A stretch of DNA of 64,000 bases from Cenococcum geophilum 1.58 (Eukaryota; Ascomycota; Dothideomycetes; Gloniales; Gloniaceae). The stretch covers positions 2,195,645-2,259,644 of the forward strand of contig KV748190.1 in assembly GCA_001692895.1 (NCBI GenBank). The letters are read 5' to 3'. Shown here in pieces: positions 11,618-40,246 of this stretch. Both the position numbers and the translations under genes were made by a program. How positions within the stretch are numbered: position 1 is the first letter of the stretch; every line of letters begins with the position of its first letter. Under the pieces are notes generated by a model. The model was not told where the DNA came from. It made no database searches and saw nothing but the letters and a program-made list of their open reading frames with translations.

Positions 11618-11830
11618 ATAATATCTTAACTATTATATAATCAACCTTGGCATAACGACTCTCCTTTATCTTATGCCCAGTCTAGAGGTCCTGGCTTCTT
11701 AGGGTGTTGCTTATAAAACTTAAGTAGTGCGCGCTCGCACCCTTTTAGGGATTTCTTGGGTTCCTAGGTTTCTTTATTGTAATACTTCTACTTAATACAG
11801 TATGTTAAGCCATGCTCGTCTATTTATTTA

Positions 11831-12685
11831 CTGTTGGTTGCAAAATATCGGGAACTCGCTTAGAGCGACGACGTCGCGCATCTACCCTACCATCAAAACA
11901 ATATACCCCCTATAGCCCTACCAATATGGCTCCAATTTATATAAATAAGGGCTTATTTTATAACTTTACTTTAAGGCTATAAAATAAGGTTTTATTTATA
12001 TAATTTGAAGCCAAATTGGTAGAGCTATAAGGGGTGCTTATTTTTGGGGGGAGAGGGGCCAGATTAGTCAGCGCAGAGCCTCAATTTAAGTTTTACGGCC
12101 ACCCCCTATAGCCCCACTAATATAGCTCTATATTTAATAAATAAAGNCCTATTTTATAGCCCTAGAATAGAGCTATAAAATGGGCCTCTATATATAAAAA
12201 TTGGATTAATATTAGTGGAATTATATAGGGTAATATATTGCTGCGGCTTGGCGATTTTTACCAATATTTCCAAAACGGCAGTATACCCCCTATAGCACCA
12301 CCAATACAGCTCTATATTTAATAAATAAAAACCTATTTTATAGCCTTAGAATAGGGCTATAAAATAGGCCTCCATTTATAAAATATAGAGCTATATTAGT
12401 GGGGCTATAGGGGGTAGCCGTAAAACTTAAATTAAGGCTCTGCGCTAACTAATCTAGCCCCTCTCCCTCTAAAAATAAGCACCCCTTATAGCTCTACCAA
12501 TTTGGCTTCAAATTATATAAATAAAACCTTATTTTATAGCCTAAAAGTAAAGTTATAAAATAAGCCCTTATTTATATAAATTAGAGCTATATTGGTAGGG
12601 CTATAGGGGGTATATTGTTTTGATGGTAGGGTAGATACGCGACGTCGTCACTCTAAGCGAGTTCCCGATATTTTGCAACCAACAG
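11831..12685. mobile_element. 855-bp palindromic MITE (Tc1/mariner-like, TA target), inserted in element C
   Basis: Both ends read CTGTTGGTTGCAAAATATCG inward and are flanked by TA (11829-11830, 12686-12687), which fits a Tc1/mariner-type target duplication. The inverted arms match over at least the first 95 bp with only two C/T differences and continue for about 400 bp to a centre near 12258. The arms themselves are built of shorter imperfect palindromes around CCCCTATAGC...GCTATAGGGG, so it is a palindrome of palindromes. There is no coding capacity. It splits the chromodomain segment of element C and is therefore younger. Confidence 0.9.
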
Positions 12686-12689
12686 TATC

Positions 12690-14930: not shown

Positions 14931-14935
14931 GCTAA

Positions 14936-15698
14936 GGGAACGTTCGGTTGCAAATCGCCTCCATTTCATAATCTGTTCAATCCGTGCGCCTTTTAGTGTC
15001 GCCCATTTTGTAATTAGTGGCGGCTACTACCGTGGCTCATTTGAATATGTAATTGAGTCGATTGTTTGGTTGAGGCTCCATAATAAGGCTCCAGATTTGA
15101 CTTCGCATAATGCGTGATTGACGTCGGTGAGCGATTTGAATGAGGCCCTCTCTGCCACCAGGCCTCTATCGCGACTCCCTACTTTNGTGTAGTAATGGAG
15201 CCTCCTTAGCTAATGCCCTCTGCGATCGACGCTTTCTATACTTTTGCCCACCTCCTGTAGGAGCTGTAGTAGGGTTACAGTGACGCCCGCAACGCCCCGC
15301 GACGCCCGCAACGCCCTAAAAATAAGCTTATTGCGATTATATAAGGTTAAGATAATAATATATTATTATATAAAGGCTTGCAAATGCGACAGCAGTATCG
15401 CGATTAGGGTGTGTGGAGTTGCCATATCGTCACTTTGGCACGCATGTGGGAGCTCTATATTAAAATGGAATATGGAACAGGAGCTCGAAGCTACATATTA
15501 AAACAGTGCCAAGAGCTCTATTTCAACTACTATATACAGTATAGCTTGCAAATTTAACGCGCTTACCGATATGGAGGAGCTCCATATTCAAAAGTCGCCA
15601 TATTTACCGAACGACACCCTCATATTCATATTTGAGCTCCATTTCGGTTACAATATGGAGCCTCCATATTCGTAACGGAGGTGCAACCGAACGATCCC
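14936..15698. mobile_element. 763-bp PIF/Harbinger-like MITE inserted in element C
   Basis: The terminal inverted repeats are GGGAACGTTCGGTTGCA (left) and GGGATCGTTCGGTTGCA (right, reverse complement): 17 bp, one mismatch. The 3-bp duplication TAA (14933-14935, 15699-15701) fits the TWA target rule of PIF/Harbinger. It separates codons of a reverse-transcriptase segment of C that otherwise read on. Base composition differs from its surroundings: CA and CG dinucleotides survive, so it either arrived after the main RIP episode or was too short or rare to be mutated. The interior has repeated GAGCTCCATATT-like blocks in both orientations and GCAACGCCC...GACGCCC repeats. Open frames at 14908-15117 and 15244-15501 look fortuitous. 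Confidence 0.82.
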
Positions 15699-15701
15699 TA
15701 A

Positions 15702-18700: not shown

Positions 18701-19400
18701 GGTTATTTAGGTGTATACATAGCATATTAAGGCCATATTTAATATAGTTATAGGCCTTATCTATTAGCATGTCTGATATATAGAGGACTTTGTCCATTAG
18801 GGTCTTAAAGTACTTTACATCCCTTTAGAAAACGCCTTAGATCTTTATTTCCTATATTTTAAATTTTTCTTACTTTTTAATTGGTGATCCCTTGCCGTTA
18901 AATAGGGTTAGATCTTTTGCTTTATGCTTTTTTCTATAGGGCTTAGCTAGAAGAGGGGAGCTAGTTATAGGGTTTATATTCTTATTAGCAATGGCCTAGG
19001 TAAGTATAGCGATCTAAAAGCTTAGGCTTTATATGGTCTTAGTATATATAAAAGCTTACTGTTTGTATTATTTAACACGCAGTTTAAGTATCTTAAGGGA
19101 GTTAATTCTATGCTAAGCTTTTTTAAGTTAGGATGTTATAGTTTAACCTTTATTATAGACGGCTTAGAGACCGCTCTTAACGCTAGTTAAAAAGGTTATA
19201 CATATAGAGAGGTGCTAAAAGGTTCCTACTACATTAAGGTCCTTAGGGTACTCTAGACCACTTCTAATTGCCTAGGTAATATAGGTATAAAGGGTATTAA
19301 AGAGGTAGGCGAGCGCTTTGCGTGTGTTTATTAACGGGGTATTATTTATATTTTAGTTACCTATTTTAAGGGATCTAGGTAGGGCAATTAAAATCTTATA
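15702..19400 (-). pseudogene. element C gag-protease-reverse transcriptase region, fossil
   Basis: Minus-strand reading gives TPFGLYNAPAIFQNYINHIL near 15930-15870, a signature of Ty3/Gypsy reverse transcriptase, followed by FKFYAIKTKYL just before the MITE. Protease and gag lie upstream toward 19400 by position. Broken many times. Confidence 0.85.
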
Positions 19401-19598
19401 AGGCTGGCTGTAATACTAAAATTGTTAAGACTATTTAGAACTATATTAAGACTATGCTGAGGCTATACTAAGACTATAGTACGGTGTTATTAGTTACGTC
19501 GGGTTGCGATTATACTAGGAAAAACGGAGACTATAGATGGAGGTGGTAGACTAAGAGGGCAAAGATCGCGACGGGGCGTAAGAGGAGATACCACAAAC

Positions 19599-19784
19599 TG
19601 TTACAGTGCTGCAATAAAGTAGACTAAATAACTATGTTATGGTATAAAGAGGAGAAGAAGGTGAAAAGGGGTATTGTATATAAATAGTAGGGCCAGCCGC
19701 CGAGGCGCTAGTGGTAGGCTAGCTAACGGTAGGAAACAGTATAAGATAGTATGGAACAGTATGCGACAAGTCAGTGCCGTGACA
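19599..19784 (-). repeat. 5' LTR of element C
   Basis: 186 bp, the same length as the partner LTR, followed by TTAAT. Differences from the partner are mostly transitions. Confidence 0.95.
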
Positions 19785-19789
19785 TTAAT

Positions 19790-22700
19790 CCTATTATACT
19801 TAGCTTATTTTTTAGCTAATACCTAGTTCACTTTTTATTTTTAATATACTATAGATAGGTGTTTTCTAGATATTCCTACTATTATTATCCATCTAAGCAT
19901 TCTTCCGTAAGGAATCTTTCTGGTTAAAGTATTAAATCTCCTTCCTCTTAGACTTCTACTGGATGCCAGCCGTATATATACTTAGCATTCCTATACTATT
20001 ACTTATCTATTATCCAGTATATCCTTATAAGGTATTTCCGATTCTTTTCTTTTAAATTCTTGTGTATTTCGCATATATTATCTATATATACAATCTATAA
20101 TAGCGTATAGTATACTAGGTGCTTTAGGTTAACTCTTGGCTCGTTTTTGTCCTTAAGTTTAAACCTTTATTATGCTAATTTAAACGTTATAACTTTATTT
20201 ATAGGTACTAAGACGCGTTTCTTGCTTTTTTAGTCCTTTAATTATTCCTCTAGATCCTTTAATATTATAATTAGTGCTCCCTTAATATGGTTTATTGCTT
20301 TTTCCGTAATTAGGTGGTTTTGGATAACTTTTTTGTCTAACTATATATAGAAATCTTCCTACTCGTTGTTGTGTCGCTGTCTATACTACTTTTAGTATAG
20401 CTACTAAAGTGTATACGGTTTATTTATAAGGAAGTATCTTCTTATTACTGCGTTATAACAGCCCTTTATATATTATTCTTTAAACCTAATAGGAATCCCT
20501 AGATCTTCTTTTTATTCTAGTTTAGTAAGCCATTTAGCTCTTAGTGTACCTGTTCTTAGTTTATTAGTAATTCTTTATATAAATACTCTGTCCTTTATAC
20601 GTCCTAATATACTAAATCTCTTATTTAGTTTCTGTTCTTGCTATAAGGTAATTCTCGCTCTAAATTCCTCTATAGTTTCTTTTTTTTTGCGTCTTACAAG
20701 TAGATCCTTAAAGTTCCCTTACTTCTTAATCTTAGTATTAAGCTTTTAATCTTTAGTCTAAACATCTTATTTAACTAGTAAGTCCTCTAGGTCTATATAT
20801 CTGTCTCCCAGTCTAACTACTATTTAAATCGCAGATTCTCTAATCTGTAAAGAAGCTTCTTGCCTTTTACTTATAGGTGTCCTAATTTACACTCCAAATT
20901 CTTAATCCCTTGGATTCTTTAATCCTAAGCTTACTTCTAACTTGAGCTTAGCTTCAGCCTTAGTCTAACTAGGCTTTACTAGTATCCTCGTCTTATTTTA
21001 AGAGTCCTGGATCTTACTTATCTCTTTTTAAGAATCTTATACCGTTAGGAACACTTGTCCCAAGCTTATTTATATATTCTTAAACTAAGCTACTACTCTA
21101 CTCTATCGGTTATTATCCATTATAGGTCTCTAAGCGTACCCTATCTTATCTTAAAAATCTTAGTTATCTCTTATCTTATTTTAAAAATCTTAAGCCTTTG
21201 GCCTTTTACCTTTATTAAGTGGTAAGCTAGCACTAACAGTCGTCTACTTACTTAATCGTCTCTAGATATTACTCCTTCTATCTTATAAAGCGATAGATAC
21301 TGTATCTAATGGTGTTATAATGCCCGTTACTAAACCTTACTCTATAACGGTCTTAGTCTCTACTTCTATTACATTATTAAGGTTTAGATACCCCCAGTTA
21401 GTTTCCTTACTATCCTCGCCACTATTAATTAATAAGTACTCTAACTCTATTATTATTGTTGCTAATCCTTATCTATATATTACTGTAATATCTTAATCTA
21501 GCTCGTAAAGTTAATCCTATTCTTTATCTAACTCTTTAGTTTCTTTAAGTCCTCTTAACTTTAGCTCTTATAGCCAATAGCTTGCTCTATACTTAGCGTC
21601 TTTATAAATTTAGTATACATTATTATAATAAAACGCAAAACTTCTAATTGAACATTCTTTTATTCCTTATAGTGCACTATTATCTCTTTATATGTATATA
21701 TTATATACTACTGGTCTAGTTCCCTTTACTACGTAATAACTCTAACCACTTCTACAGTCTCTAGCAAAATAACCCTATTTTCCGTAATTTATATAAGCTC
21801 CATTTTTAAACTATTATTTTTACTATAGAGTCTGCTTAAACGTCTTCTACTACTAAGATTCTTAGTTTAGCCTATACTCCTTAGTCCTGTAATTACTTAA
21901 TTCTTAACCTCTAGGTTTCTATAGTTTCTTATTCCATCTTCTATAGGTTTTTTTAGTACCGCTTAGGTCTATTAGCTCTACGCCATACTATAGTTTCTAA
22001 TTTAGCTTTAGTTATTACGTGCTTTGCGTTTTATATAACTGTAGAACTCTATCCTAGCCCTTCTTAGCCTGTTCCCTTTAGAAGATCCTATTATTAATCT
22101 TAATTGCTTAATCTATTAATTCCCTTAGGGTATCCGTATCTTCTATTAGAATAATTACGTCCTAGACTTTAGCCTTAAGTCCCTATTTATACTGTGCTAT
22201 AAGCGCCTTATTATTCCATTTAACCTATATAGTAAGTATTTAAAACTACGTCGTGTACTTAATTGCTAAAGTTCGCTGTGTTAGGTTCTAAAGCTTTCTT
22301 TTTGCTATTGTTATTACTTCTGGGTCCCTAAATATTTATATAAGTTGTTCTATAAATCCTGCCTAGCTAGAAAACACAAATTATACCTTTTAATTGGTAG
22401 TAGTTATTCCGTTAGTCTGTATTTCCGTTAAGTAGGGTTTAAACTATTTAAGTGCCCTTCCTATTAAGAATAGTCCTATATAGGCTATCTGATCCATTAA
22501 CGTAGCTAACTTAGCCCCTTCTTATATGACTTTAAAATGCATTTACGTTAGAAATCCTTTAAGCTTTAATCTCTCCCCTAAGAATTGTTTAATTAAAGGT
22601 AACTTAACCTTTACTGCTCCGATTCTATTAAGTCTTTCTTTAAGTATTTAGTTATTCTCGTTTAACCTATTAACAATTTCCTATAACTGCCCTACCGTGA

Positions 22701-22837
22701 CTGGTTGTAAGTTAGTATCTTGCATACTTATATCTCTACTTAACTTTAAAGTAGTTACTGCCGTTAACGGCGTTATAGTGGCTGCTTTTGGTGGCATGTT
22801 ATTTAACTTATTAAAACTATAACTGTAGTAGTAATTG
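19790..22837 (-). pseudogene. element A gag and spacer region, fossil
   Basis: This half of A lies on the far side of C. Minus-strand reading starts near 22798 with a gag N terminus (MPPKAATITPLTAVTT) and reaches a CCHC-like zinc-knuckle segment near 21750, then a charged spacer. Homologous to 52137-55140 in copy B. Many breaks. Confidence 0.82.
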
Positions 22838-23259
22838 TGTAACGGAGCCTTATAGTAGGAACTACGGTAAACTTATTAATGGGCTAGGTATATAGGTATT
22901 ACAAGTAAGTTAATAACGTAATAATAACTAGTGGAGTGGTTACCTAACAGATTAACTCTAATTGTATTCTAAGAATTACTATAAAAAAGGAACTATCTAG
23001 GTAGGGATTAAGGGTCCTTAAATACATAACTGTACTCCTATAAAATCCTTCTTGTACGTAATATACGTTTTGTTTATATTAAACGTAATATCCCTTATAT
23101 TTAACGCAGCTAACATATTTAACTATTATGTGACTCGCTTACCATTCTTCGTTATATAGCTCTACGGGTTCTATCCTAGTCTATACCTATATTAACTAAC
23201 TAGCTTCTTCCAACTCTTCTCTAAGTAGTCGTAACATCATACTTAAAGCGTCCGTAACA
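22838..23259 (-). repeat. 5' LTR of element A
   Basis: 422 bp, starts TGTAACGGAGCCTTATAGTA and ends GCGTCCGTAACA, followed by the duplicated GTAAA (23260-23264). Confidence 0.95.
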
Positions 23260-23310: not shown

Positions 23311-25556
23311 ATGGTTAAGGCTATAAAAAATATAAAAATTAAAATTAAGAAGGATGCGGAGCTTAAGGGAAACTTAAAAGGTAAAGAGTGGAAAAATACA
23401 TTTATAGACATTAGAAAGCTCTCTAAGATTACCTATAAGATTAATAAGATTAAGGCGGTGCGGGATATAATTAGGAAGAAATAGGGAGAGGAGCTTTTAG
23501 AAGGTCCCTATAAGCTCTTCTATATATACTACGCACTAAAGAGCATCCGTATCTTTATCTATTAGGCAAAAAGGGGTCAGGTCTTTAAAAAGGATGCGTT
23601 AAAAATGGTTAATAATGCGATACTAAACCGCCTAAAACTTTTGAAGGCTAGAATTTTAAGGACTCTATATCTAACGCCTTTAGACTTTTTTACCGCGTAT
23701 AAGTTCGGATTAGTAGTTAATAAGGAATTAGTTAAGAAATAGAAGCTCGTTTATTATCTAAGCTAGGGCTATAAGCTTTTAGTACTAGCCTTAACTATTA
23801 AGATTAAAAAGGAATCTCTACCAGAGCTAGTTACCCTAATACCTCTACTATTGCCTTTTAAAGAGATTAAGGGGTTAAACGTAAAGATGCTGCGTAGCTT
23901 ATTTCTGTTTAGAGGTAGGGTTCCTAAAGCGTAAGAAGAAGACTCTAAATCTAATAGATCCACATCTTTAGAGAATAGCCTTATCGCTAACTTCCTACAG
24001 AAATGTAAGGCTAAAAAGGCTTCTAAGAGATCCCTAAAAAAGAAGCTAAAGATAGGACCTACGGAACCTCTAGCTTCTAGTAGAGCTAATAGGCAAAAAG
24101 AAAAGGTAGCTGTAATCGCTAAAGCTAATAAAGAAGTAATTGTTAGGAAAATATAGATAAAGCGGAAAATAAAATGCTTATATTATTCTAAAACGCTAGT
24201 TAAACTAATTAAGACCTTTAATTCGAAGAAAGAGCTAAAGGGCGGTATATTGGCTATCTTATAATAGTTTATTACGGCCTAACAAGAAAATAGAATAAAA
24301 GTCCGCGCATTATACTAAATGCATCTTTAGAAAATAGTAGGGTTATTAGGGTTAGATGCTAGTGTTTCTTCTATAAATTTATATTTATAAATCCACTTAA
24401 TCTCTAAGAACTATAACGCTGTTAATATTCTCCGGATAGCCAAAAGCTCTTACTTCTAGTTTAAAAGAGATAGCCGCCCTAAATATACGAATAATAGTCT
24501 TAGAATTTATACTTATTCTACTATATAGCCTAGTAATTTCCTAGTAGACCTTATAGGATTAAGAAAGCTTATATTAGGCTTAAAAGGAGAACTTAAATAG
24601 GACCTATTCGGAATCTACTATACCAATTTATTTAAATAGTAGATAAACGCCGGAATTCTAAACATTTTTAAGGAGGAATTTAACATGTACGCGTATTATT
24701 TGCGTAAGACCGCTAAAAAGGACGATAGCGGTATTCTTCGAACTATATACTATTTACTACTATAATAGGTAGTTTAAATAGATTTAGAGTACTACTAGTA
24801 TATAGTGGCTCTACGCACTAATAATACTACTCGTTTTATTGCGTATTTAAGCTACGCACTCCGGTTCCTTAAAGGCCACCTTTCTAAAAAATAGAACTTA
24901 GATATTGACCTTCTCTAAGTATATAAAGGAGGGCCAAATTCTAGAGAAAGTTGGCTTTATTCTTATATTTCCTTAATTAATAAGGGAAGTTAGTTCTATG
25001 CAGAGCTCCTACCTAAAATACATTAGCATATACCGGAATAGGTAGGTTTACTTTAAGAGTATAAAGAACTTAATAGCTAAAGGCGTATTAAGAATATAGA
25101 AACAGCTTAGACTAAAGCTAATACTAAGAAGTTTAAGCTTAACTAGACGCCCATTACATTAAGAACTAGTAAAGTGCGATTTATAAAAGCTACTATTACG
25201 CAAAAAGCCTCTTAAGCTACATTAAGCCGCCTAATTATTATACTAGACTTAATTATAATCCTATTAAATACTAGGAGATTAGAGATCCCTAGGCTTAAGA
25301 GCTAGTAGGTGGTTATATAGATAAATCTAAATATCTTTCCCCTAGTATTAACTCCTACTAGCAGGCCTATTACTAATATTCCTCTATACAAATTCCCAGC
25401 CTATATATAACTGTAGGTAAAGAGCGCTCTTTTAAATGCTTTAGTTAGAAGACTTTTATAGAATAACCCTTAAGTAAGGGTAGAACGGCAGATAATCCTA
25501 GATCCTACCTTAAATAATAAATATAAAGTATTTTAGGAAAGATATAGGGCGCGTAT
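23311..25556 (+). pseudogene. long unrecognised gene, 5' part (continues at 37939)
   Basis: From ATG at 23311 a single frame runs to 25556, about 750 codons, interrupted by TAA/TAG codons almost all at plausible Gln/Trp positions, which is RIP decay of a real gene rather than chance. Early residues are basic (MVKAIKNIKIKIKKDAEL). Legible stretches include NRLKLLKARILRTLYLTPLD near 23620, a Lys/Ser-rich segment near 24000-24080, and DLIGLRKLILGLKGELK near 24550. I see no transmembrane block, zinc finger or catalytic motif I recognise. Element D entered inside the frame and the reading resumes after it. The gene is plus-stranded, with a former 5' neighbour at 5095-6652. It could be a host gene family or an unrecognised protein of a mobile element. 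Confidence 0.6.
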
Positions 25557-25768
25557 TGTTACAGCTTATACAAATACCTCTAGACCGAAGCTTGTAGAAT
25601 GCTGTATTACGAAGATACTAAGCTAAGAAGAAGGGAAAAAGGGGTCGCTAGGACCGATGTAAACAAATATATAGGGTGAGCCGCCAAGGCGCTAGCTCTA
25701 GGCGAGCCAATCGCGGGTCGGCAGAATATGGCAGAATTTAGTAGGTAACGTGCGATAGCGCCGTTACA
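25557..25768 (-). repeat. 3' LTR of element D
   Basis: 212 bp. The block GCCGCCAAGGCGCTAGCTCT and the end CGCCGTTACA match the other D and E LTRs. Preceded by CGTAT. Confidence 0.95.
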
Positions 25769-25971
25769 TTACCCCCCTCTTTAAAAGAAAGCCTGCCCTT
25801 AGGCTTAGTTAGAAATAGGGTAGCACTAGGCTTATAAACATAGGATTATAAAATATAAGATAAGAAGATAAAGGGGATATAAGTGCGTCCGGACTAAGTA
25901 CAAAAGGCAATTATAGGCTAAGTAAAAGCATTAGGCTAGAAAGAGTAGCCGCTAAAAGTCTTAGCACAGAT

Positions 25972-26010
25972 CTAACTAATTAAACAACTTTAACCGGCGG
26001 TCGAAGTTCC
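25972..26010 (+). repeat. conserved palindromic motif, copy 3 (element D)
   Basis: Begins CTAACTAATTAAACAACTTT, with left arm AACTTTAACC and a right arm that carries two substitutions. It lies between chromodomain and 3' LTR, as in C. Confidence 0.82.
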
Positions 26011-26099
26011 TAGACATCTGAAATTTTATAGTATTAGCAGAAAACAGCAAAATATAGCAGAATTTGGCAGACAGCTATATTAGGGCTTTAGGGCGTTTT

Positions 26100-28619
26100 T
26101 ATCCCTATATTCTTCCGGTAACTTATTATCTTTATTATACTAGCATTCTATCTATTTATCTAAGTACTTTAGGGGTCTAGGCGTATTAGGGTATTAGTTA
26201 TAGAACTCTTTAAGCTTCTAAAGGCAGCCTATAAAGTTCTATATAGGGTACCAGGTTAGGTCTAGATTATAGCCCTTCCATTAAATATAGTATTTTAGCG
26301 TTCCCTATACTATCTTATAGGCTAGTATTTTATTAACTTCCTATTTATTATTACCGTTTACTTAAACTAGTAGGGGAGGCTTATTCTTTTATCTAGGTAA
26401 TAGGTTATTTATAGCTTTCCATAACTTATCTAGTAAAAAAATAGGGTAAACCCTAATTAAATCTAGGAGCTTTACCTTATATAAGTTGCCTATCTTCTTA
26501 AGAACCTTATACGGTCCTACTATCTAGTAGTCTAGCTTATAGCTAGGTCGTTCGGTCTTCCAATTCCTTATTATAACCCAGACTATATCCCCAGAGGTAA
26601 AGTCGGGCTCTTAACGGTGTTTATTTACCTGCTATTCCATTAACCTTTAAGCTTTTTTTAGGTTCTTACGGGCTACCGTCTAGGCTTCCTCTAAGCATTT
26701 AGCGAACTGTTAGGCCTTAGTATAGGATAGCTTCTCTTATACAGTCTAGGGTTCTTCTGGCCTTTTCTAGTTAAAGCTTATATAGGGTAAGTATCCCATT
26801 TCTAGCTAAATTAGGGCAAACCCTATAGAGTTATAGGGTAGGGTTGCTTAGGCGTAGTCTATTAAGGGTAGTAGTTCTAACTAGTTATCTTAGAAATAGT
26901 TAATAAAGGGCCTAAGCCTCTAGTCCAGGTACTAATTTACAATCTCCGTCTAACCGTCTATCTAGGGGTAGTAAGCTATAAAAAGCTTTAGCTTAATGCC
27001 TAAGATCTAGGTAAACTTATTCTAGAAGGCTAATATAAACTATAGCCTATAATTAAACATAATAGTATCTAGTAGTTTATAGATTTGGTAGACGTAATAG
27101 ATATATAGCTAGGCTACCTCTTTAGCATTGATATTCTTATAATAGGGAATTAAGAATAGGCGTTTGTTAAAGCGGTTAACTATAACCATAACTATATTAT
27201 ATCCGTTACGGTCCCTAGGTAGTTTATAAAAGTCTATAAAGATATACTACTAAGGGCGCTCTAGTATTGGAAGTAGCTTAAGTAGTCCTAGTGTCTTATT
27301 TTATAGGATTATAGCTCTCCTATAGTCTTTATAGTTCTATATATATTAATTAATATCTATAACTATTCTTAGCCAATAATAGCGGCAGTTAATAATTTTA
27401 CGGGTCTTATTCTTGCTAGGGTATACTATAAAAACTTAGCAATAAGCTTCGCGGATTAGTTTAGTCTATAAATTGTTAACGTTAGGGACTATAAGCCGCT
27501 CCTAGTATAGAAGCAACCCTTCCTCCGCTTTAAAATTAGGGTCTTTCTTTACAGCCTAATCGCGGAGGGCCTTTAAGGCGTTAGCCGTGCGGTTTATAGT
27601 TAGGAGGCGGTTAATTAGCCCTATTAGTTTATTTAAGGTCTCCTCTATTAATACTAGCTCATTTAGCTAGGAGTTTAGCTTCTTAAGGATCCGCAGGTTA
27701 AGCTATTTAAAATAAAGGAGGGCGCGCGTCCGATATTAGGTCTTTAGCTCATCCTAAGGTCCTACGTCTTATTCTCTTTAAGTTAGGGTATTAGCCTTAG
27801 AGTTTTGCTTACTAAAACAATATATAATTATAAAAAAGAATTAGAAGAGTGTCTCGGCCTACTAGGCTTATTATTTAGTAAGCTACTTTATAGTTATAAA
27901 GTACTCTAGGGCTTTATAGTCTATATATATCTTAATCCGGGAGTTTATACCTTTAAGCTCTACACGCTATTAGGAGAGTAATTAAATAATAGCTAGTATC
28001 TCTTTATTATATACTTTATAGTTATACTTAACCGGGTCTATTATTTTTAAGAAGAAAGTAATAGGGTACTATTTACCGTCTAAATATAACTATAATAGGA
28101 TTCCCGCTATAACCTTATTAAAGGCGTCCGTTTCTAGCATTAATTTAAGGTCTAGGTTATAGTAATAAAGGACTAGGGAAGAGATAAGCTAATTCTTTAT
28201 CTCTTTAAAGGCTTCTATATAGTTATTATTAAAAATAAAAGGCGTATCCTTCCTAGTTAGTTATATAAGAGGTTTTACCATAATTCTATAGTCGCGGATA
28301 AACTAGTAGTAGAAGTTATAAAAACTAAGGAAGAATTAGATTCCTTTTACTATATAAGGGGGCTTCTAGTTGCGGATTACCTCTACCTTCTTAGGGTTAA
28401 CCTTAATTCCTTCTATAGTCACGATAAACCCAAGGTATTTTATACGTTTTACCCTAAACTTATATTTCTTAATATTAACTTATAAGCCCGCGTTCCGTAG
28501 TTTCTCTAAAACCTTCTTAATATAAACTTAATACTTAAGTTTGTTGTCCAAGTATATAAGAATATTATCTAGGTATACCGTATAAAACTTATTAAGGTAA
28601 TTAAAAAGAACGTTATTTA
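26100..28619 (-). pseudogene. element D 3' pol region (reverse transcriptase end to chromodomain), fossil
   Basis: Minus-strand reading next to E gives NKFYTVYLDNILIYLDNK, the end of a Ty3/Gypsy reverse-transcriptase core, followed by RNase H and integrase stretches matching E. Many breaks. Confidence 0.82.
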
Positions 28620-28624
28620 TATAC

Positions 28625-28835
28625 TGTAACAGCGCTATTACACATTACCTGCCAAATTCTGCCATATTCTGCCGACCTATAATTGGCCCGCCTAAAGCTA
28701 GCGCCTTGGCGGCTCACCCTATATATTTATTTACATTAGTCCTAGCGACCCCTTTTCCTTTTCTTTAGCTTAGTATCTTTGTAATATAGTATTTGTTTAA
28801 GCTTCGGTTTAAAGGCATTTATTTAAGCTGTGACA
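28625..28835 (+). repeat. 5' LTR of element E
   Basis: 211 bp, TGTAACAGCG...GCTGTGACA, preceded by TATAC. It is the inverted counterpart of the D LTRs. Confidence 0.95.
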
Positions 28836-29065
28836 TTATACTAAGCTCTCCCTACCTTGCCTAGGAAGGCCTTAATAATATCCCACCCCAAAGAAACTTC
28901 GTCTGCAATAACGCATTAACGTACTATACTTAGATACTAAAACAACTCTACATTACCTAGAAAGGCCTGGATAATATCCTACCTTATAAGCCAGACAGGA
29001 CTGGACCTATACCCCCAGAATCAAAACTAAAGCGTATAATACCGACGAACCTTAGGAAGCTAACG

Positions 29066-30290
29066 ATGGCACCTAAAGCAAGCTCATCTAAAAAAGCTGC
29101 CTCTACCCGAAAGGAACCTAAGATCTAATTAGGATCAGAAATCAAAGACAATAATGATGTTATAGACATACGCGAGCAGATTCGCGCCCTCGCAGCCAGC
29201 CAGGAAGCCAATTATCTTAAAGCAAGAAATATACAAGAGACCCTATAAGAGATCCTAGAAAGCCTTACAGCCCTATAAAATAGCCTAGCTTCCCCTTCTC
29301 AAAGCCCTAGCCGACCTATTTACTCTACTAAATGCGATATACTAGGGAGTATGGATATAATAACGAAGTAATTAAAGTCCGTTAAGCTCTTTAACCCCCT
29401 ACCACTATCTAACGGGATAGACCCTACCTTTAAGAATTAGAGGATTTAAGTATAAGGAAAGCTCCGCGTTAACTATAACCATTTCCTTTTCAAAGAAGCT
29501 AAAATACTCTACCTCTTTAGTTAAACTACTAGGGACACCCAACGGCACCTTTACGCCAAGTTTAAGGACGACTCCTCTGTCCAATTTATATCTGTTAATA
29601 AGATAATATAGTACCTAGCGGCTATCTATATTAACCCGAATAAAGTACGGAATACCCGTTATAATTATAATTACCTAATAATAAAACCGAACCAACCCTT
29701 TGCTAAATTCTAGACTTAATTTCTATACCTTACAGGAGAAGGCTAGGTTCCCCTTAAGAACTACTAATTAGACTTATATAATAAGCTAATAATCCGGCTA
29801 TAAGAAAAGATCGCTGTAACCTTAAATAACCTACTAACCTATAAAAGACTTGTAGCTCGTTACCTATTATTAAACTTAAAACTAAAGCGGATTAATACCT
29901 GCCCTAATTAGTAGAAGTGACTCTATAATAATTAAAACTCGCCAGCTATACCTATAGGAGCTAGAGTAGGAAGATAAGTTACAACTACTCTTATACTAAA
30001 GGCGGTTATAACTACGTACTGGTAAGCCTCGCCCGACTAGCTACGTACTACACTATTAACTAGTATTCGCCGTAATACTCTAATTAACCCTGCCTTGGCT
30101 ACGTGCTTTAACTATAATAAGTAAAGTTACTTTATTTTATCCTGCCTAGAGCTAAAGAATATAGGCGATATTAAGGAGATGGAGAAAGGAGAAACGTCCA
30201 ATAAATTAGGAAAAGAAGAACCCTAGGGAAAGACTCCCCCCTAGGGTACCCTATTGATCTCAAAGAGATTAATCTTAGTTAGTTAATAGG
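29066..30290 (+). pseudogene. element E gag, fossil
   Basis: The N terminus MAPKASSSKKAASTRKEPK is followed by a coiled-coil-like stretch (REQIRALAASQEANYLKARN), usual for chromovirus gag. D has the equivalent near 37490 on the minus strand. A cysteine-bearing knuckle-like region lies near 30100. Many breaks. Confidence 0.8.
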
Positions 30291-30359
30291 TAGAAAGTAT
30301 TTTACAGTTCTATATATAGTATCTTAAAATGGATATAGAGTTAATATAACCGCCCTTAT

Positions 30360-33300
30360 TAACACTAGAGCAAATAGCTTCGCCTTTATAAATACTGCCT
30401 GTATAAATAATATTGCTAAGTTTTTAAATACAGAAGCTATCTAACTAGAGAAGCCTGTTTAGGTAAAGGGCTATAACGGCCAAGCCGGTTGGCCTATTAC
30501 CCACGTCTTAAAGTTATATATCGCTCTTAACAGACGACGCTAATATAGTATCCCCTTTTGTATTCTAGACCTAGGGTCCCATAATATAATCCTTAGACGA
30601 AAATAGATATCCTATTTTAATATTTAGTTAAATATATAAAAAAGACGGTTTGTCTGGCCAAAGGATAGACTAAGGTTACCCTCCTTTATTAGGGAGATCC
30701 GAACCAACCGCAAGATACTAGCCGTAAGGGGTAACCCTACCTACTAGTAGAATGTCCGGGCCCGTGACCTAGCCTTTACCTAAGAGGACGCCCACCGCGA
30801 AGCTAGAAAGAACTCTATACCAATAAAGATACTCTCCCAAAGCGCTATATTTAAAGAGGACTCTACGTATAGAAGCGGGATAGATAATAATATAGATAAT
30901 ATCTAAATCGCATAGATCTAACCGTTATGAAAAAGAACGTATTAATAGGATATAAGGGATGACCTCTAAAAGATATAATAGGAGCTAAAAGGAGTAATAA
31001 TAACGCCAGTACCCTGGAAGTCCCTAAAGTTATATACGCCCCTATTATTAGTTAACCCCCCTACCGTAGACATCGCCGTAATTAGCGCTGTAGTGTTCCA
31101 CTTTAATATATATTAGAAGGACAATAAGGTCTTTATAACGAGCCTATATAAGATTAACCAAATTATTAATAATAGAGAGGAAAGGCTAGATAAGGAAACC
31201 GATAAGGAACTAGTTAAACGCCTTCTTCCTACTATTTATATAGGCTATAAGGATGCATTCTTAAAAGCGGCCTTAGATAAGTTACCCCCCTACCAAACAT
31301 ATAATTACAAGATTTAATTAAAGGCCAATAACTCGCTAGGCTATAGCCCCCTTTACTATTAATTAACGGATAAGCTAAAAGCAATAAAGTAGTACTTAAT
31401 TGATAACCTGGATAAAGGGTTTATCGAGCTAAGTTAAGCCCCTTTTGCTTCCCCTATCCTGTTTATAAAAAAGCCTAATAGAGGCCTTCGTTTTTATATT
31501 AACTATTAAAAGCTAAACACTATTACTTAAAAGGACCGGTATCCTATTCCTTTAATTAACAAGACCCTTATACATCTAAGCCAGGTAAAGATCTTTACTA
31601 AACTTAATATCCGCCAAACTTTCCACCAAATTAGGATAAACCCTATATCTAAAGATTTAATAACGTTCCGTACCCACTATAGTTCCTATAAATATAAAGT
31701 TCTTCCTTTTAGACTAATAAACGGACCGGCTATATACCAAAGGTATATAAATAACGTTCTTTTTAATTACCTCAACAAATTCTATACGGCATACCTAGAT
31801 AACATTCTTATATACTTAAACAACGAACTTAAGCATTAAGTTTATGTTAAGAAGGTCCTAAAGAGGCTACGGAACATAAACTTATAAGTTAATATTAAGA
31901 AATATAAGTTTAGGGTAAAACGTATAAAATACCTCGGGTTTATTATAACTATAAAAGGAATTAAGGTTAACCCTAAAAAGGTAGAGGCAATTTATAACTA
32001 AAAGCCCCCTTATACAGTAAAAGGAATCCAGTCCTTCCTTAGTTTTTGTAATTTCTACTACTAGTTTATCTATAACTACGGAATTATAGTAAAACCTCTT
32101 ATATAACTAACTAGGAAGGATACGCCTTTTGTCTTTAATAATAGCTATATAAAGGCCTTTAAAGAGGTAAAAAATCGGCTTATCTCTTCCCCAATCCTTT
32201 ATTACTATAACTTAGACCTTAAATTAATGCTAGAAATAGACGCCTCTAATAGGGTTATAGCGGGAATCCTATCGCAGTTATATCCAGATGGCGAATAGTA
32301 CCCTATAGCTTTCTTCTTAAAGATAATAGACCCGGCTAAGTATAACTACGAAGTACATAATAAAGAAATACTAGCTATTATTTAATTACTCTTCTAATAG
32401 CGTGCAGAGCTTAAAGGTATAAACTCCTGAATTAAGATATATATAGATTATAAAGCCCTAAAGTACTTTATAACTATAAAGCAGCTTATAGGGCGATAAG
32501 CCTAGTAGGCCAAAATACTCTCTTAATTCTTCTTTATGATTATATATTATTTTAGCAAGTAAAACTTTAAGGCTAATGCCCTAACCCAAAGAGAATAAGA
32601 CGTAGGACCTTAGAATAAGCTAAAGACCCAATATTAGACGCGCGCCCTCCTCTATCTAAAACAGCTTAACCCACAAATCCTTAAGAAGCTAGACTCCTAG
32701 TAAAATAAGCTAGCACTAATAAAGGAGTCCTTAAATAAGCTAATAGGGCTAATTAACCGCCTCCTAACTATAAACCGCACGGCTAATGCCTTAAGGGCCC
32801 TCTGCGAATAAGCTGTAAAAGGAGACCCCGATTTTAAAACGGAGGAAGGATTACTCCTATACTAGAAGCGGCTTATAGTCCCTAACATTAACAATCTATA
32901 GACTAAACTAATCCGCGAAGCTTATTACTAAGTCTCTATAGTATACCCTGGCAAAAACAAGACCCGTAAAATTATTAACTGCCACTACTACTAGCCGAGA
33001 ATGGTTGTAGATATCGATTAATATATATAGAACTACAAAGACTACCAAAAAGCTATAATCCCACGGGATAAGACCCTAGGACTACTTAAGCCACTCCTAA
33101 TACTAGAGCGCCCTTAGCAACATATCTCTATAGACTTCTATAAACTACCTAAGGACCGTAACGGATACGATATGGTTATAGTTATAGTTAACCGCTTTAG
33201 TAAACGCCCGTTCTTAATTCTATATTACAAGAACATTAATGCTAAAGAGGCAGCCCGGCTATATATCCATTACGTTTACCAAATCTACAAACTATTAGAT

Positions 33301-34230
33301 ACTATTATATCCAATTATAGGCTATAGTTTATATCGGCCTTCTAGAATAAGTTTACCTAAATCCTAGGCATTAAGCTAAAGCTTTCTATAGCTTATTACC
33401 CCCAAACAGACGGTTAGATAGAGATTGTAAATCAGTACCTAGACTAGAGGCTTAGGCCCTTTATTAACTATTTCCAGAACAACTAGTTTAAATTACTACC
33501 CTTAATAGACTACGCGCAAGCAACCCTACCCCACAACTCTATAGGGTTTGCCCCAATTCAGCTAGAAATGGAATACTTACCCCGTATAAGCTTTGACTGG
33601 AAAAGGCTAGAAGAACCCCAGACTATATAAGAGAAGCTATTCTATACTAAGGCCCAATAGTACGCTAAACAATTAGAGGAGGCCTAAATAGTAGCCCGCG
33701 AGAACCTAGAAAAAGCTTAGAGGTTAATGGAATAGTAGGCAAACAAACACCGTTAAGAGCCCGATTTTGCCCCTAGTAATATAGTCTAGGTCATAATAAG
33801 GAATTAGAGAACTAAACGACCCAGCCATAAGCTAGACTACTAGATGGCAGGACCGTATAAGGTTCTTAAGAAGATAGGTAACTTATACAAGATAAAGCTC
33901 CTAGACTCAATTTGGGTTTACCCTATTTTCTTACTAAATAAGTTACGGAAAGCTATAAACGACCTATTACCTAGACAAAAAAACGAGCCTTCCCTACTAG
34001 TTTAAGTAAACGGTAATAATAAATAGGAGGTTAACGAAATACTGGCCTATAAGATAGTACGGGGAGCACTAAAATACCATATCTAATAGAAGGGCTATAA
34101 TCCTAACCCAACCTAGTACCCTACGTAAAACTTTATAGGCTGCCCCTAGAAGCTTAAAGAATTCTATAACTAATACCCTAATATACCTGGACCCCTAAAA
34201 TACCTAAACGAATGAATAGAATGCTGGTAT
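30360..34230 (+). pseudogene. element E pol with chromodomain, fossil
   Basis: Protease end near 30560-30640 (FCILDLGSHNIILGRK). Reverse transcriptase with PFASPILFIKKPN-like and YLDNILIYLNNELK segments near 31450-31830. RNase H near 32200-32560 (LMLEIDASNRVIAGILSQL). Integrase near 32900-33740 (VIVNRFSKRP near 33190). C-terminal chromodomain near 34030-34200 (EILAYKIVRGALKYHI), which in chromoviruses is thought to read histone marks and direct insertion to heterochromatin. Many breaks. Confidence 0.88.
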
Positions 34231-34356
34231 AATAAAGACGATAAGTTACTAAAAGAATATAGGGACAAAAACGCCCCAAAGCCCTAATATAGCTGTCTGC
34301 CAAATTCTGCCATATTCTGCCGTTTTCTGCTAGTACTATAAAATTTCAGATATCTA

Positions 34357-34397
34357 GGAACTTTAACCGCCGGTTAAAGTTATCTAATTGGTCAAAT
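34357..34397 (-). repeat. conserved palindromic motif, copy 4 (element E)
   Basis: Reverse-complement copy of the block, with intact arms AACTTTAACC / GGTTAAAGTT around GCC on the plus strand. Same place in E as in C and D: after the chromodomain, before the 3' LTR. Confidence 0.85.
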
Positions 34398-34602
34398 CCG
34401 TGCTAAGACTTTTAGCGGCTACTCTTTCTAGCCTAGTGCTTCCACTTAGCCCACAATTGCCCTTTGTACTTAGTTAGGACGGACTTATATCCCCTTTATC
34501 TCCTTATCTTATATTTTTATAATCCTACGTTTATAAGCCTAGTACTACCCTATTTTTTCTAACTAAGCCTAAGGGCAGGCTTTCTTTTAAAGAGGGGGGT
34601 AA

Positions 34603-34813
34603 TGTAACGGCGCTATCGTACGTTACCTGCCAAATTTTACCATATTCTGCCGACCTGCGATTAGCCCGCCTAAAGCTAGCGCCTTAGCGGCTCACCCTAT
34701 ATATTTGTTTACATCGGTCCTAGCGACCCCTTTTCCTTCTCTTTAGCTTAGTATCTTCGTAATACAGCATTCGTTCAAGCTTCGGTTTAGAGGCATTTAT
34801 TTAAGCCGTAACA
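34603..34813 (+). repeat. 3' LTR of element E
   Basis: 211 bp, TGTAACGGCG...GCCGTAACA, followed by TATAC. The purine run AAAGAGGGGGGTAA lies immediately before it as a polypurine tract. Confidence 0.95.
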
Positions 34814-34818
34814 TATAC

Positions 34819-37500
34819 CTTTAGTACATAGCCAGTCCGTTTACTAGTCTAAAAAAAAACTTTATATTTATAAGAACTATAACGGGTATAGAACGTTATT
34901 AAATCTTTAGATATAGGGTTTATCCTAATTCAGTAGAAAGCTTAATAGATATTAAGTTTAGTAAAGATTTTTGCCTAGCTTAGACGTATAAGGGTCTCGT
35001 TAATTAAAGGAATAGGGTACTAGTCCTTTTAAGTAATAGCGTTTAGCTTTTAATAGTTAATATAAAAACAAAGGCCTTTATTAGGCTTTTTTACAAATAG
35101 GATAGGGGAAGTAAAAGGGGCTTAACTTAGCTTAATAAACCCTTTATCTAGGTTATCAATTAAGTACTACTTTATTGCTTTTAACTTATCCATTAATTAT
35201 TAGTAGAGGGGGCTATAGCCTAGCGAGTTATTAGCTTCTAATTAAATCTTATAATTATACATCTGGTAAGGGGGTAACTTATTTAAGGCCGCTTTTAAGA
35301 ATATATCCTTATAATCTATATAAATAGTAGGAAAGAGGCGTTTAACTAGTTCCTTATTAGTTTCCTTAGCCGGCTTTTTCTCCCTATTATTAATAATTCG
35401 GTTAATCTTATATAGGCTTATTATAAAGACCTTATTGTCCTTCTAGTATATATTAAAGTAAAACACTATAGCGCTAATTGTGGTGATGTCTACTATAGGG
35501 GGTTTATATAATAATAGGGGTATATATAACTTTAGGGGCTTCTAGGGTACTAGCGTTATTATTACTCCTTTTAGCTCCTATTATATCTTTTAGAGGTTAT
35601 CCCTTATATCCTATTAATACGTTCTTTTCTATACCGGTTAGATCTGCGCGACTTAGACATTATCTACATTACTTTCTATCCCGCTTCTGTATATAGAGTC
35701 CTCTTTAGACGTAACGCTTTAGGAGAGTATCTTTATTAGTATAGAGTTCTTTCCAGTTTCGCGGCGGGCGTCTTTTTAGGCAAAGGCTAGGTTACGGGCC
35801 TAGACATCCTACTAGTAGGTAGGGTCAGCCTTTACGGCTAGTATCTTATAATTAGTTCGAATTTCCCTAATAAATAAGGGTAGTTTTAGTCTATCCTCCG
35901 GCTAGATAAATTGTCTTTATTATATATTTAGCCAAATATTAAAATAGGACATCCATTTTCGGCTAAGGATTATATTATAGAACCCTAGGTCTAGGATGTA
36001 GAAAGGGATACTATATTAGCGTTATCTATTAAAAGCGATATATAACTTTAATACGTGGGTAACCGGCTAACCAGCTTAGCCGTTATAGCCTTTTACCTAG
36101 ACAGGCTTCTCTAATTAGGTGGCTTTTATATTTAGAAATTTGGCAATATTATTTATATAGGTAGTATTTATAAAGGCGAAGCCATTTACTCTAGTATTAA
36201 TAAGGGCGGTTATATTTACTCTATATCTATTTTAAGATACTATATATAGAATAGTAAAATGCTTCCCACCTATTAACTAACTAAGATTAATCTCTTTAAG
36301 ATTAATAGGGTACCCTAGGGGGGAGTCTTTCCCTAGGGTTCTTCTTTTCCTAACTTATCAGACGTTTCTCCTTCCTCTATCTCCTTAATATCGCCTATAT
36401 CCCTTAGCTCTGGGCAAGATAAAGTAAAGTAACCCTCCTTATTACAGTTATAGCACGTAGCCAAGGCGGGGTCAATTGGGGTATTACGACGAGTACCAGT
36501 TAAGGGCGTAGTACGTAGCTAGTCGGGCAAGGCTCGCCGGTGCGTAGTTGTGACCGCTTTTGGTGCAAGAGCAGTTGTAGCTTATCTTCCTACTCCGGCT
36601 CCTATAGGTGCGGCTAGCGAGTTCCGATCGCTACGTAGTCGCTTCTACTAATTAGGGTAGGTATTAATCCACTTTAGTTCTGTATCTAAAAATAGGCAAT
36701 AAGCTATAAGTCTTTTATAGGTTAGTAGGTTATTTAAGGTTATAGCAATCTTTTCTTATAGCCGGATTATTAGCTTATTATATAGGTCCAAACGGTAGTT
36801 CTTAAGGGGAACCTAGCCTTCTCCCGTAAGGTATAGGAATTAAGTCTAAAATTTAGCAAAGGGTTAGTTTGGTTTTATTATTAGGCGATTATAATTATAC
36901 TAGGTATCCTATACTTTATTTAGGTTAATATAAATAGCAGCTAGGTGCTATATTATCTTATTAATAGATATAAATTAGATAGGGGAATTGTCCTCAAACT
37001 TAGCTTAAAGGTGCCATTAGGCGTCCCCTATAGTTCGACCAAAGAGGTAGAGTATTTTAGCTTCTTTAGAAAGAAAATAGTTATAGTTAATATGGAGCTT
37101 TCCTCATACCTAAATCCTCTAATTCTTAAAGGTAGGGTCTATCCTATTAGACAGTGGTTAGGGGTTAGGAAGCTTAACAGACTTTAATTATTTTGTTATT
37201 ATATCCGTACTCCCTAGTATATCATATTCGGTTAAGTAAATAGGACAACTAGGACTTCTGGAAGGGGGGGCTAAGCTTTATAGGGCCGTAAGGCTGTCTA
37301 GGATCTCTTATAGGGTCTCCTATATACTTTAAGCTTAGAGACAGTCGGCTTCCTAATTGGCCATTAGGGCACGAATCTATTTATATACGTCCATACTGTC
37401 ATTATTATCCTCAATTTTAGATCCTAATTGAATCTCATATTCTTCTTAGGTTAGGGCAGCTCTTTTAAATAAGCTTACTTTAGGTGCCATCATTAGCTTT
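34819..37500 (-). pseudogene. element D gag-protease-reverse transcriptase region, fossil
   Basis: The minus strand carries the 5' half of D: gag about 37490-36350 (acidic N terminus with DNNDSMDVYKQIRALMANQE-like residues), protease about 36250-35950, and the first part of reverse transcriptase up to the E insertion. Homologous to 29066-31800 of E. Many breaks. The open stretch at 36945-37187 on the plus strand is an antisense shadow of gag. Confidence 0.82.
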
Positions 37501-37721
37501 TTAGGGTTTATTAAAATTGTATAATTCGGTTTTAATTCCGGGGGTATAGGTCTAGTCCTATCTGGCTTATAGGGTGGGATATTATTAAGGCCTTCCCAGG
37601 CAATGTAGAGTTATTTTAGTGTCTAAGTATAGCGCGTTAACGCGTCGTTGCAGATAAAGTTTCTTATAGGGTGGGATATTATTAAGGCCTTCCTACGTAG
37701 GGTAGGGAGAGCTTAGTATAA

Positions 37722-37933
37722 TGTTACAGCTTATATAAATGCCTCTGGACCAAAGCTTATAGAATACTATATTACGAAGATATTAAGCTAAGAAGAAGGG
37801 AAAAAGGGGTCGCTAGGACCGATATAAACAAATATATAGGGTAAGCCGCCAAGGCGCTAGCTCCAGGCGAGCCAATCGCGGGTCGGCAGAATATGGCAGA
37901 ATTTAGCAGGTAACGTGCGATAGCGCCGTTACA
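37722..37933 (-). repeat. 5' LTR of element D
   Basis: 212 bp, TGTTACAGCTTATATAAATG...GCGCCGTTACA, followed by CGTAT at 37934-37938. Confidence 0.95.
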
Positions 37934-37938
37934 CGTAT

Positions 37939-38800
37939 TACTAAGGCTATTTAGAATAGCTTTAAAGAGCTAAAGAAATTTAAATAAGAAGTGTTTAGAG
38001 TAAAGTCTTACTTTTTAGCAAAAGAGTAAGGATATAGGCGTCCTATAGATAACCTAGAATATCCTAAAGACCTAATTTTAGACCTAGAAAATAAGAATAA
38101 CTTAGTTAATATGGCTTTTAGCGCTTCCCCGTTAACTAAGTATAGTTTTAAAGGCTATACTAAAGGCAAGAATAGGGCTGTTACGCCTTAAGGCATTAGG
38201 ACTACTACTCTATACCTTAATCCTGGTATCCTTAATAATAAAGTAGTGCCTATAGAAGTCAACCGTAAACTAAAGGATCTAAGTAAGCCTAAGGAAGATA
38301 GCCCCCAGGATACTGCCCCTAAACGATTATTAATAGTTATTAATACTTTAGGAGACACCAATAAACCAGTAATATTATACCGCCTAACGCCTTCACCAAT
38401 TTCGGAAAAAGGTGCTACTTTAGAAGAGTAGGCAATTAATTTTAGTATTCTAAAATCTCCCTTATAGAAGAAAATGTAAGCGGAAATAGATACTGTTTAA
38501 AGAAGAGTGTCTTTAAAACTTAAAGCTGGAGCTGTTAATATATAAAAGGATATAAGTGCGGAAATTAAGGTAGAGGACGTCGCAGATAAAGATAATAGGC
38601 AAAATATAGAGATAATGATTAAGGACGGAGTATAGGCTACTTTAGAGAAGTTAGGGGAGTATTAGGTATTAGATTGTCTTCTATTTTTTAGGCATTTATT
38701 ACCTACTAAGAACATTATAAGGAAACGTTAGGGGATAACGTTTTAGGTAGAGGAGGTAATATAGTAGTATCAAATACCCTTAGTTATTTTGGGTTGTTTT
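37939..38800 (+). pseudogene. long unrecognised gene, 3' part (continues from 25556)
   Basis: The frame interrupted at 25556 resumes here after the CGTAT duplication: lysine-rich KELKKF, then a 61-residue open stretch at 38246-38431 (MPIEVNRKLKDLSKPKEDSP) and an acidic/amphipathic C-terminal part near 38540-38660 (ISAEIKVEDVADKDNRQNIE). Stops again fall at likely Gln codons. The legible coding character fades after about 38700-38800. No family recognised. Together with 23311-25556 this was a protein of about 1000 residues or more. Confidence 0.55.
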
Positions 38801-40003
38801 TCTTTTTATATATAGGAGGTTTAGGGCTATATATATATAACGGAAGAAGCTTAGGTTCTGGCCTTACTAATAAACAATTTAATTCTTTTCTCCCCTCTAC
38901 TTGTTCTTCTACCCTACTGGTATAATTAGCTAAAAGGTAGGAAGTATTAAAATTGCTTAACTATTAAAAAGTTAGTAAATATACTTCTAAAACGCCCTCT
39001 CTGGTTAACTCTAATATATATATAATTACCTATTTAGGTTAGAATTAAGAATCTAAACTAAATTAAAATCTACTTATATTTATCTAGATTTCGTATTAAC
39101 CGTATTAAAGTATTATTAGAATAGCAATAGCTTACCTTACCCTTTATAACCGCGATAAGGACTAAAACCTCTTCCTCTTTCTTATATCTAGTGTGTTCTA
39201 AATATATTATATATTTAGGCTTTATAAGCTTAATAGACTATAATTCGCAGGCAATAGCACCTAAGTATTGCGCAAAGTAGGCTAGCGTGGGGGTAGGCTT
39301 AGAGAGAGTCGCGGTTATATAGCGGATATAGTAGCGACTAATATAGCGACACTAGTAGTAGCGGTAGATATAGCAGTATTAGACAGGAAGTTAATTAATA
39401 AAGTTTAACTCTAGCTCGGCGTCAAATTAACACTAGAAATCCTAAATATCGCATCTATACCCTATAAAGAAGGGTATAGTATACAATTATATTTAAGACC
39501 GGCTGCACGCAACTCCTACTATAGACTTTTAGATAGTAGATCTGCGTGCTCCCATTTGTTTATATAGTCATTAAGGCGTTTGCATATAGTAATTAGGTGG
39601 AATTAATATGCTATTTAATATAGCAGAGTATATAGAATGGCAACAGTATAATATATTAGAAATAGAGCAGATTTACTAATAGCTATAGGTACTGCTAATA
39701 TCTAAGCCTATGTCTAAAGTCTCTTAAGAATATAATTCTTTTTGGCATCTAAATTTGCCCCCTTCTTATTATATATTTTACGTTCGGGCGTTCTTAACTA
39801 AAGTAAATAATTATAGCGACTACAGCAGGAGCCTTTATTAGTATTAGCAGCAACTAAAGCGTTAGGCTTAGCGAAATACTTATATAGTATTTCCTTAATA
39901 CACTTGTGGTCGTTACATAGCTAGAAAAACTTATCTCCCATCTCTATACGCTTCTACTTATCTTCCTTTTTACCTCCCTACTTTAATTAGGTGGTATCGC
40001 TAG
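38801..40003 (-). other. unassigned sequence with a possible minus-strand coding remnant
   Basis: Minus-strand reading near 40000-39800 gives IEMGDKFFxLCNDHKCIKEI and further residues with few stops other than likely Gln codons. The Cys/His spacing loosely recalls the zinc-finger start of some hAT-type transposases, but I cannot confirm a family. Another legible stretch lies near 39560-39440 (SLQQELRAAGLKYNCILYPS). Nothing recognisable between 38800 and 39300. The reading ends abruptly at the inverted repeat starting at 40004. Confidence 0.35.
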
Positions 40004-40246
40004 CTACATTAGGAAAAAAATTTACTAGCATTTAATTTTACTTTTTTACCATTTTAGCATTTTCTAGCATTTCTAGCATTTTTTAGCATTTAGCAGCTAA
40101 ATGCGGCATTTATTACTAAGTACTAGCATTTAGCCGCCAAATGCCGCATTTATAATTAAGTATTAGCATTTAGCTGCTAAATGCTAGAAAATGCTAAAAT
40201 GGCAGAAAAGTAAAATTAGATGCTAGTAAATTTTTTCCTAATATAG
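40004..40246. mobile_element. 243-bp MITE-like inverted-repeat element
   Basis: The ends CTACATTAGGAAAAAAATTT (left) and CTATATTAGGAAAAAATTTA (right, reverse complement) match over about 65 bp. The interior holds three short palindromes of the type GCATTTAGCNGCTAAATGC. No coding capacity. A target duplication is not clear. A third, related terminus lies at 44042-44107, so the real element may be longer. Confidence 0.75.

Follow-up and report, generated by a model that had tools for sequence, protein, structure and literature searches.

What is a frame of about 1000 codons, full of stops and cut in two by a retroelement, doing in a 64,000-nucleotide stretch of the Cenococcum geophilum 1.58 genome (contig KV748190.1, here C15:2195645-2259644)? 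We refer to this whole stretch as the window, to the frame at 23311..25556 as part A and to its continuation from 37940, after insertion D, as part B. Searches of the fungus's own genome covered an assembly of 177.2 Mb in 162 contigs, and any count given as the best so many of a number of candidates is a lower bound. The frame had been picked out in an original prediction made from the letters of the window. Our analysis indicates that it is very likely the remnant, killed by repeat-induced point mutation (RIP), of a protein gene from a large DNA transposon with terminal inverted repeats (TIRs), which also carries a DUF6589 gene, a tandem paralogue and a RecQ-like helicase gene; this assessment takes in the roles that we propose for their products.

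The interrupted frame and its copies

Part A begins with ATG 23311 and stays in one plus-strand frame through 25556. Its 748 codons contain 39 stops (26 TAG, 13 TAA and no TGA), and the remaining five frames of the same stretch contain 43-102. The pentamer CGTAT is duplicated around insertion D (25552-25556 and 37934-37938); the frame of part B restarts at 37940, past the second of these pentamers, and runs to about 38734, which gives a joined frame of about 1015 codons. The predicted frame, resuming in phase past D, was thereby confirmed. Three close copies, on contigs C9, C24 and C44, have the empty site of D, with parts A and B contiguous. RIP dinucleotide indices were strong in nearly all 2-kb bins of the window, with the exception of 40-44 kb. 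The randomised-sequence control suggested in the original prediction held against simulated DNA, as the best forward frame in 500 dinucleotide (Markov) simulations never came down to 39 stops (mean 71, minimum 49), but not against the window itself, where 498 stretches of this length (748 codons), taken over six frames, include at least 14 with 29-36 stops. These low-stop stretches are located in the GC-rich 40-44 kb portion and within other elements. The stop count alone is therefore weak proof, and the reality of the frame is decided instead by comparing stop columns between its copies.

Such copies are numerous. Part A matched the genome at DNA level at least 41 times, the window's own copy counted (best 40 of 105 candidates scored), and part B at least 72 times (best 40 of 106 candidates scored). 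Searched as protein, part A gave 60 matches including the window's (best 60 of 255 candidates), each with 24-54 stops. Among 70 tblastn high-scoring segment pairs in the fetched loci, some of them overlapping, 29 were longer than 700 codons with 0-2 gaps, and at 25 distinct places a single frame runs through the A/B junction for 850-1020 codons (29 rows, of which four are overlapping loci). A host gene with one retroelement insertion, which we had considered, is ruled out by these genomic copies.

For the analysis of constraint and of stop columns, 31 distinct copies of part A were aligned, omitting a duplicate row of the window (L001) that was still present when transversions within groups were calculated. 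The copies fall into three groups: a first paralogue (23 rows), a second paralogue (3 rows) and the group of the window (5 rows: the window, C9, C24, C44 and C71), which is nearer to the second paralogue. Within groups, transversions amount to 0.2-0.6%, although DNA identity is just about 80-92%, and nearly all differences between copies are transitions, the RIP type. Few transversions beside many transitions are what copying in a burst and later RIP would be expected to leave. Between groups, in contrast, fixed transversions are spread over codon positions 1/2/3 as 10/8/27, 9/5/17 and 2/4/20; synonymous changes are in excess (p 0.0004, 0.007 and 0.017), and the ratio of nonsynonymous to synonymous change (Kn/Ks) is 0.32-0.36. 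Transversions lie beyond the reach of RIP, and their bias towards third positions and synonymous change therefore argues for a real protein. The stop columns agree: codon columns in which 95% or more of the 31 copies have a stop number 5 of 747 in the gene frame versus 18-60 in the other five. On the evidence of these alignments, the gene is a real protein-coding gene that was killed by RIP after its spread, and in this the claim of a genuine and repeated protein is borne out.

The original prediction could match the protein to no family, and neither could we. For the family scans, 15 copies were aligned, out of the 25 frame-keeping places. Taken one by one, these copies found no family in Pfam (best E 0.018, in 1 of 15) or in NCBIfam (best E 0.026, in 1 of 15), and a profile of all 15 had no match in the PDB (best E 1). 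RIP mutation reduces the sensitivity of such scans; comparable ones nevertheless caught DUF6589 (E 1e-17) and RecQ (E 1.5e-8) in equally mutated neighbours, so that the blank for the 1000-codon protein is informative. A single-sequence structure prediction for part A was of no use (predicted local distance difference test score, pLDDT, 36.3; predicted template modelling score, pTM, 0.23).

Gene content and ends of the element

Comparison of the loci gave the gene order of the uninterrupted element: first DUF6589 (+), then the 1000-codon gene as a tandem pair of paralogues (+,+), and last a RecQ-like helicase (-). On C2 and C153 the gene occurs twice in tandem, as paralogues 77% identical in DNA, followed by a convergent helicase frame, and on C24 two copies have a DUF6589 gene upstream. 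The window's gene clusters with the paralogue that adjoins the helicase. The suspected mobile-element component thus belongs to this tandem pair within a TIR transposon of about 17 kb. A tandem array of 5.4-5.9 kb units had also been considered and is accounted for by the two paralogues per element.

The DUF6589 profile matched the RIP-mutated copy on C24 above the cut-off (E 1e-17). Across the genome it matched at 102 places (best 102 of 274 candidates), and 101 of these 102 scored hits fall outside the 64 listed places of the transposon, C36 being the only overlap. At eight places DUF6589 has no stops: C9, C42, C74 and C149, all at 16-1248 and thus at contig starts, and C41, C43, C75 and C88; these may represent a DUF6589 element that is young or subtelomeric. 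The minus-strand helicase frame of C2 and C153 matched Helicase_C with E 0.0011, below Pfam's own cut-off, and the frame in C2, compared with solved structures, matched RecQ/WRN helicases (best E 1.5e-8).

The order was compared over the first 40 of 64 DUF6589-type rows, two of which are pieces of one C44 copy, with 60 gene places and 36 of 41 helicase-side rows as partners, so that the figures are lower bounds. At least 34 of the 40 rows are followed by the gene, on the same strand and at no more than 45 kb, and 13 have both of its copies, at 1.4-1.6 and 6.8-7.5 kb. A helicase lies within 60 kb of at least 33 of the 40 rows, and a listed left end accompanies at least 23; counted from the gene, the helicase is downstream of at least 52 of the 60 places.

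By their end coordinates, uninterrupted copies measure from about 16.5 kb (C33, C36 and C60) to 17.1 kb (C3, C18 and C24). The element starts with TTGTCTCGTTCCCAGAC, and its other end is the inverted counterpart; the inverted repeats at both edges read TTGTCTCG[T/G]TCCCAGAC, in short form TTGTC...GACAA. These ends are sharp and common to the copies. On the left, 17 of 23 other listed places begin within one base of L066:1592; on the right, 33 of 39 stop at L062:1029-1033 (counted by hand with split matches joined), some of them belonging to a related family with the same end. Directly inside each inverted end lies a hairpin, whose stem sequence is not alike at the two ends; folding of one left and one right end gave z scores of -4.4 and -4.6, and 0 of 200 shuffles were equally good. 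An 8-bp target duplication flanks 8 of 10 end pairs when only transitions are allowed as differences, and is exact in 4. Among 90 mismatched pairs used as a control, 3 pass and none is exact, the best having 7 identities. The element accordingly has both terminal inverted repeats at sharp common ends and a target site duplication of fixed length, as is asked of a TIR (class II) transposon, and it possibly represents a new superfamily of this kind.

A related family with an internal repeat array (C14, C1:1217689, C4 and C29) has the transposon's right 474 bp as its own end, and at C1 a left end starts eight bases after such a piece. Solitary right 474-bp pieces at many places had suggested a long terminal repeat (LTR) element. 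We rejected this: among the best 40 of 262 candidates only C76 has such a piece close to a left end, and four solitary pieces that were read run leftwards into the repeat array and have no terminus there.

The window's copy and its insertions

In the window the element survives in pieces. An apparently non-coding leader of the gene unit occupies 5092-5778 (+), with 74-90% identity to the stretch that precedes the gene on C9 and C24, and continues at 6030-6652 (+), where it ends in GTAAA, the duplication of insertion E1. The leader's end and the first 748 codons follow at 23260-25556 (+). The next piece, 37934-40006, holds the CGTAT copy and the last ~265 codons (37934..38734, +, frame 37940) and then the region behind the gene, into the convergent helicase part (38735..40006), which is 84-89% identical in other copies. 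A short piece of the helicase part at 44105-44199 (-) joins 40006 and 49788 in other copies, and a RecQ-like helicase fragment (49788-50915, -) matches Helicase_C with E 0.0095, below Pfam's own cut-off.

The copy is broken off at 50915, and a right part on the same contig (C15:2453726-2454722) starts at exactly this point of the element, to within the length of the duplication. The window's copy probably resumes at C15:2453726. On the left, the only end on C15 among the matches listed is at 1970668. The ends at 1970668 and 2454722 are 484 kb apart and have CTTACTTC in common, an exact 8-bp duplication. With the matching break point, this suggests that one insertion was split by later ones and was apparently drawn out to 484 kb, several of the responsible insertions being visible in the window.

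Insertion D (25557..37933) is separate from the transposon. It is an LTR element (6.2 kb, LTR about 215 bp) inside a reverse copy of itself, near the middle of which the inner copy is inserted. Matches of the inner copy to RVT_1 (E 4e-24), RNase H, integrase zinc and Tf2-1-type SH3 domains identify it as Ty3-type. The interrupting element had been called a chromovirus; its CGTAT duplication stands, but it is a self-nested Ty3-type element rather than a single one, and no chromodomain was matched at E 0.01 in the three plus frames scanned. Insertion E1 (6653..23259), likewise separate from the transposon, is an LTR element with LTRs of about 430 bp and the duplication GTAAA, into which a third LTR element has in turn been inserted (11193-19791). 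E2 (51670-59691) is a second copy of the same 8-kb LTR element as E1 and has an RVT_1 match. A motif of ~70-90 bp is common to the gene leader and to sites just inside the LTRs of unrelated retroelements (6229-6317, 11574-11641, 25953-26038 and 34329-34412).

The stretch 40006-44105 is an insertion that is partly GC-rich and has little RIP mutation; it contains a minisatellite of 20-bp units (42849-43292) and arrays of 12-bp units (40287-40549 and 42380-42681). At the left edge of the window an ankyrin-repeat-like frame (5-241) matches Ank_2 with E 0.0003, below Pfam's cut-off. The region 2-4786 has one long relative among the matches listed, on C4. Next to it, a sharp-ended repeat of ~300 bp (4788-5093), found at dozens of places, adjoins the transposon's left piece.

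Proposed roles, rival readings and known systems

The comparison shows an element in many copies, with target duplications, that RIP mutated heavily once it had been copied; the functions of its genes are proposals. DUF6589 would be the candidate for the DDE/RNase H transposase of a class II element, because 101 of its 102 scored profile hits lie outside the listed element places and the domain thus occurs with other sequences too. The RecQ-like helicase may help to process ends or gaps, as a replication or repair helper. The 1000-codon protein could be an accessory factor supplied by the element itself and bind either the hairpin ends or the target, a role suggested by protein-level constraint in diverged paralogues and by the usual retention of the gene in the element. 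A bolder version has a new superfamily of giant fungal transposons with a DUF6589 transposase, hairpin ends, 8-bp duplications, their own RecQ-like helicase and a new family of ~1000-residue proteins that is required for transposition; this we hold tentatively, with doubt somewhat ahead of belief.

Several observations weigh against the transposon reading. No intact copy of the gene is found among the best 60 of 255 candidates in its own genome, and many copies of the transposon are interrupted. Six of the 40 DUF6589-type rows have no listed gene copy inside 45 kb; C5:4397914, C30 and C1 carry gene pieces, the C15 row is the window's copy, and C13 and C37 have none listed. C60 lacks a target duplication and C9 has one of 9 bp, exact. 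DUF6589 had no match in the PDB, and the 1000-codon protein has neither a domain nor a usable structure, so that its role is a guess. Mobility, finally, is read from the sequence of one genome only.

Those of the six rows that have no gene copy listed at all (C13 and C37) would suit a gene that is mere cargo, that is, a host or foreign gene caught and duplicated by the element and without a role in transposition. Two tandem copies are possible for captured genes, and the product has no similarity to transposition proteins in Pfam, NCBIfam or the PDB. Yet the gene lies downstream in at least 34 of 40 DUF6589-type rows, often at a fixed distance, and its protein-level constraint would require a separate reason; we regard cargo as unlikely, if deserving of attention. 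The roles might also be reversed, with the 1000-codon protein, which is large and conserved, as the transposase and DUF6589 as the accessory. To our knowledge no activity or function has been described for DUF6589, but its wide occurrence apart from the element, given above, makes this exchange rather improbable.

Two further explanations dispense with a transposon. A subtelomeric block of telomere-linked RecQ helicase repeats, spread by recombination, would account for the RecQ-like helicase, for the 7 of 30 gene loci that lie less than 100 kb from a contig end and for the stop-free DUF6589 copies at contig starts. Such repeats are on record in Mycosphaerella graminicola (PMC4522978) and, as the RIP-degraded subtelomeric repeat X26 with a RecQ helicase, in Stagonospora nodorum (PMC3017866). 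We disfavour this explanation as very improbable, since for the other 23 of 30 gene loci even the nearer contig end is over 100 kb away, and the copies have sharp inverted ends with 8-bp duplications. That AT-rich, RIP-mutated DNA left this frame open merely by chance, as the at least 14 window stretches with fewer stops might suggest, is refuted by the copies and has practically no probability left: 0 of 500 simulations reached 39 stops, third-position transversions are in excess, and fixed stop columns number 5 of 747 against 18-60.

An orphan frame thus very likely becomes part of a defined mobile element. DUF6589 (PF20231), an unnamed protein family and a domain without an assigned function (here the best 102 of 274 candidates), is placed inside a defined transposon and gains a testable role as transposase, and a RecQ-like helicase is seen to be carried within a TIR transposon. 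One insertion, apparently spread across 484 kb by nesting, is still recognisable through its duplication. In the literature collection searched, DUF6589 and PF20231 gave no relevant paper and, as judged from titles and the starts of abstracts, no published description of such an element was found; the ~17-kb element is apparently new to the literature.

How does it compare with known systems? Pfam scans of element pieces, which covered some frames at RIP-lowered sensitivity and nevertheless detected DUF6589, returned no KDZ (Kyakuja-Dileera-Zisupton), hAT transposase or dimerisation, or DUF3435 domain. Starships are large multi-gene fungal elements, and the transposon resembles them in its size and several genes but differs in giving no match to their captain, the DUF3435 tyrosine recombinase. 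Helitrons have a Rep-helicase and neither target duplication nor TIRs, whereas the transposon has TIRs, 8-bp duplications and a RecQ-like helicase. The ends of hAT elements differ from those of the transposon, and the pieces gave no hAT domain match. The 8-bp duplications are shared, being the rule in hAT (PMC12730594). KDZ elements are fungal TIR transposons, some of them with extra genes, and Zisupton makes 8-bp target duplications (PMC12730594). The transposon is alike in being a fungal TIR element with duplications of this length, and differs in its TTGTC...GACAA termini, DUF6589, RecQ-like helicase and two copies of the 1000-codon gene. With the telomere-linked RecQ helicases and X26, cited above, it shares a multi-copy RecQ-like helicase gene within AT-rich fungal repeats, but it is mostly contig-interior and has TIRs, 8-bp duplications and further genes.

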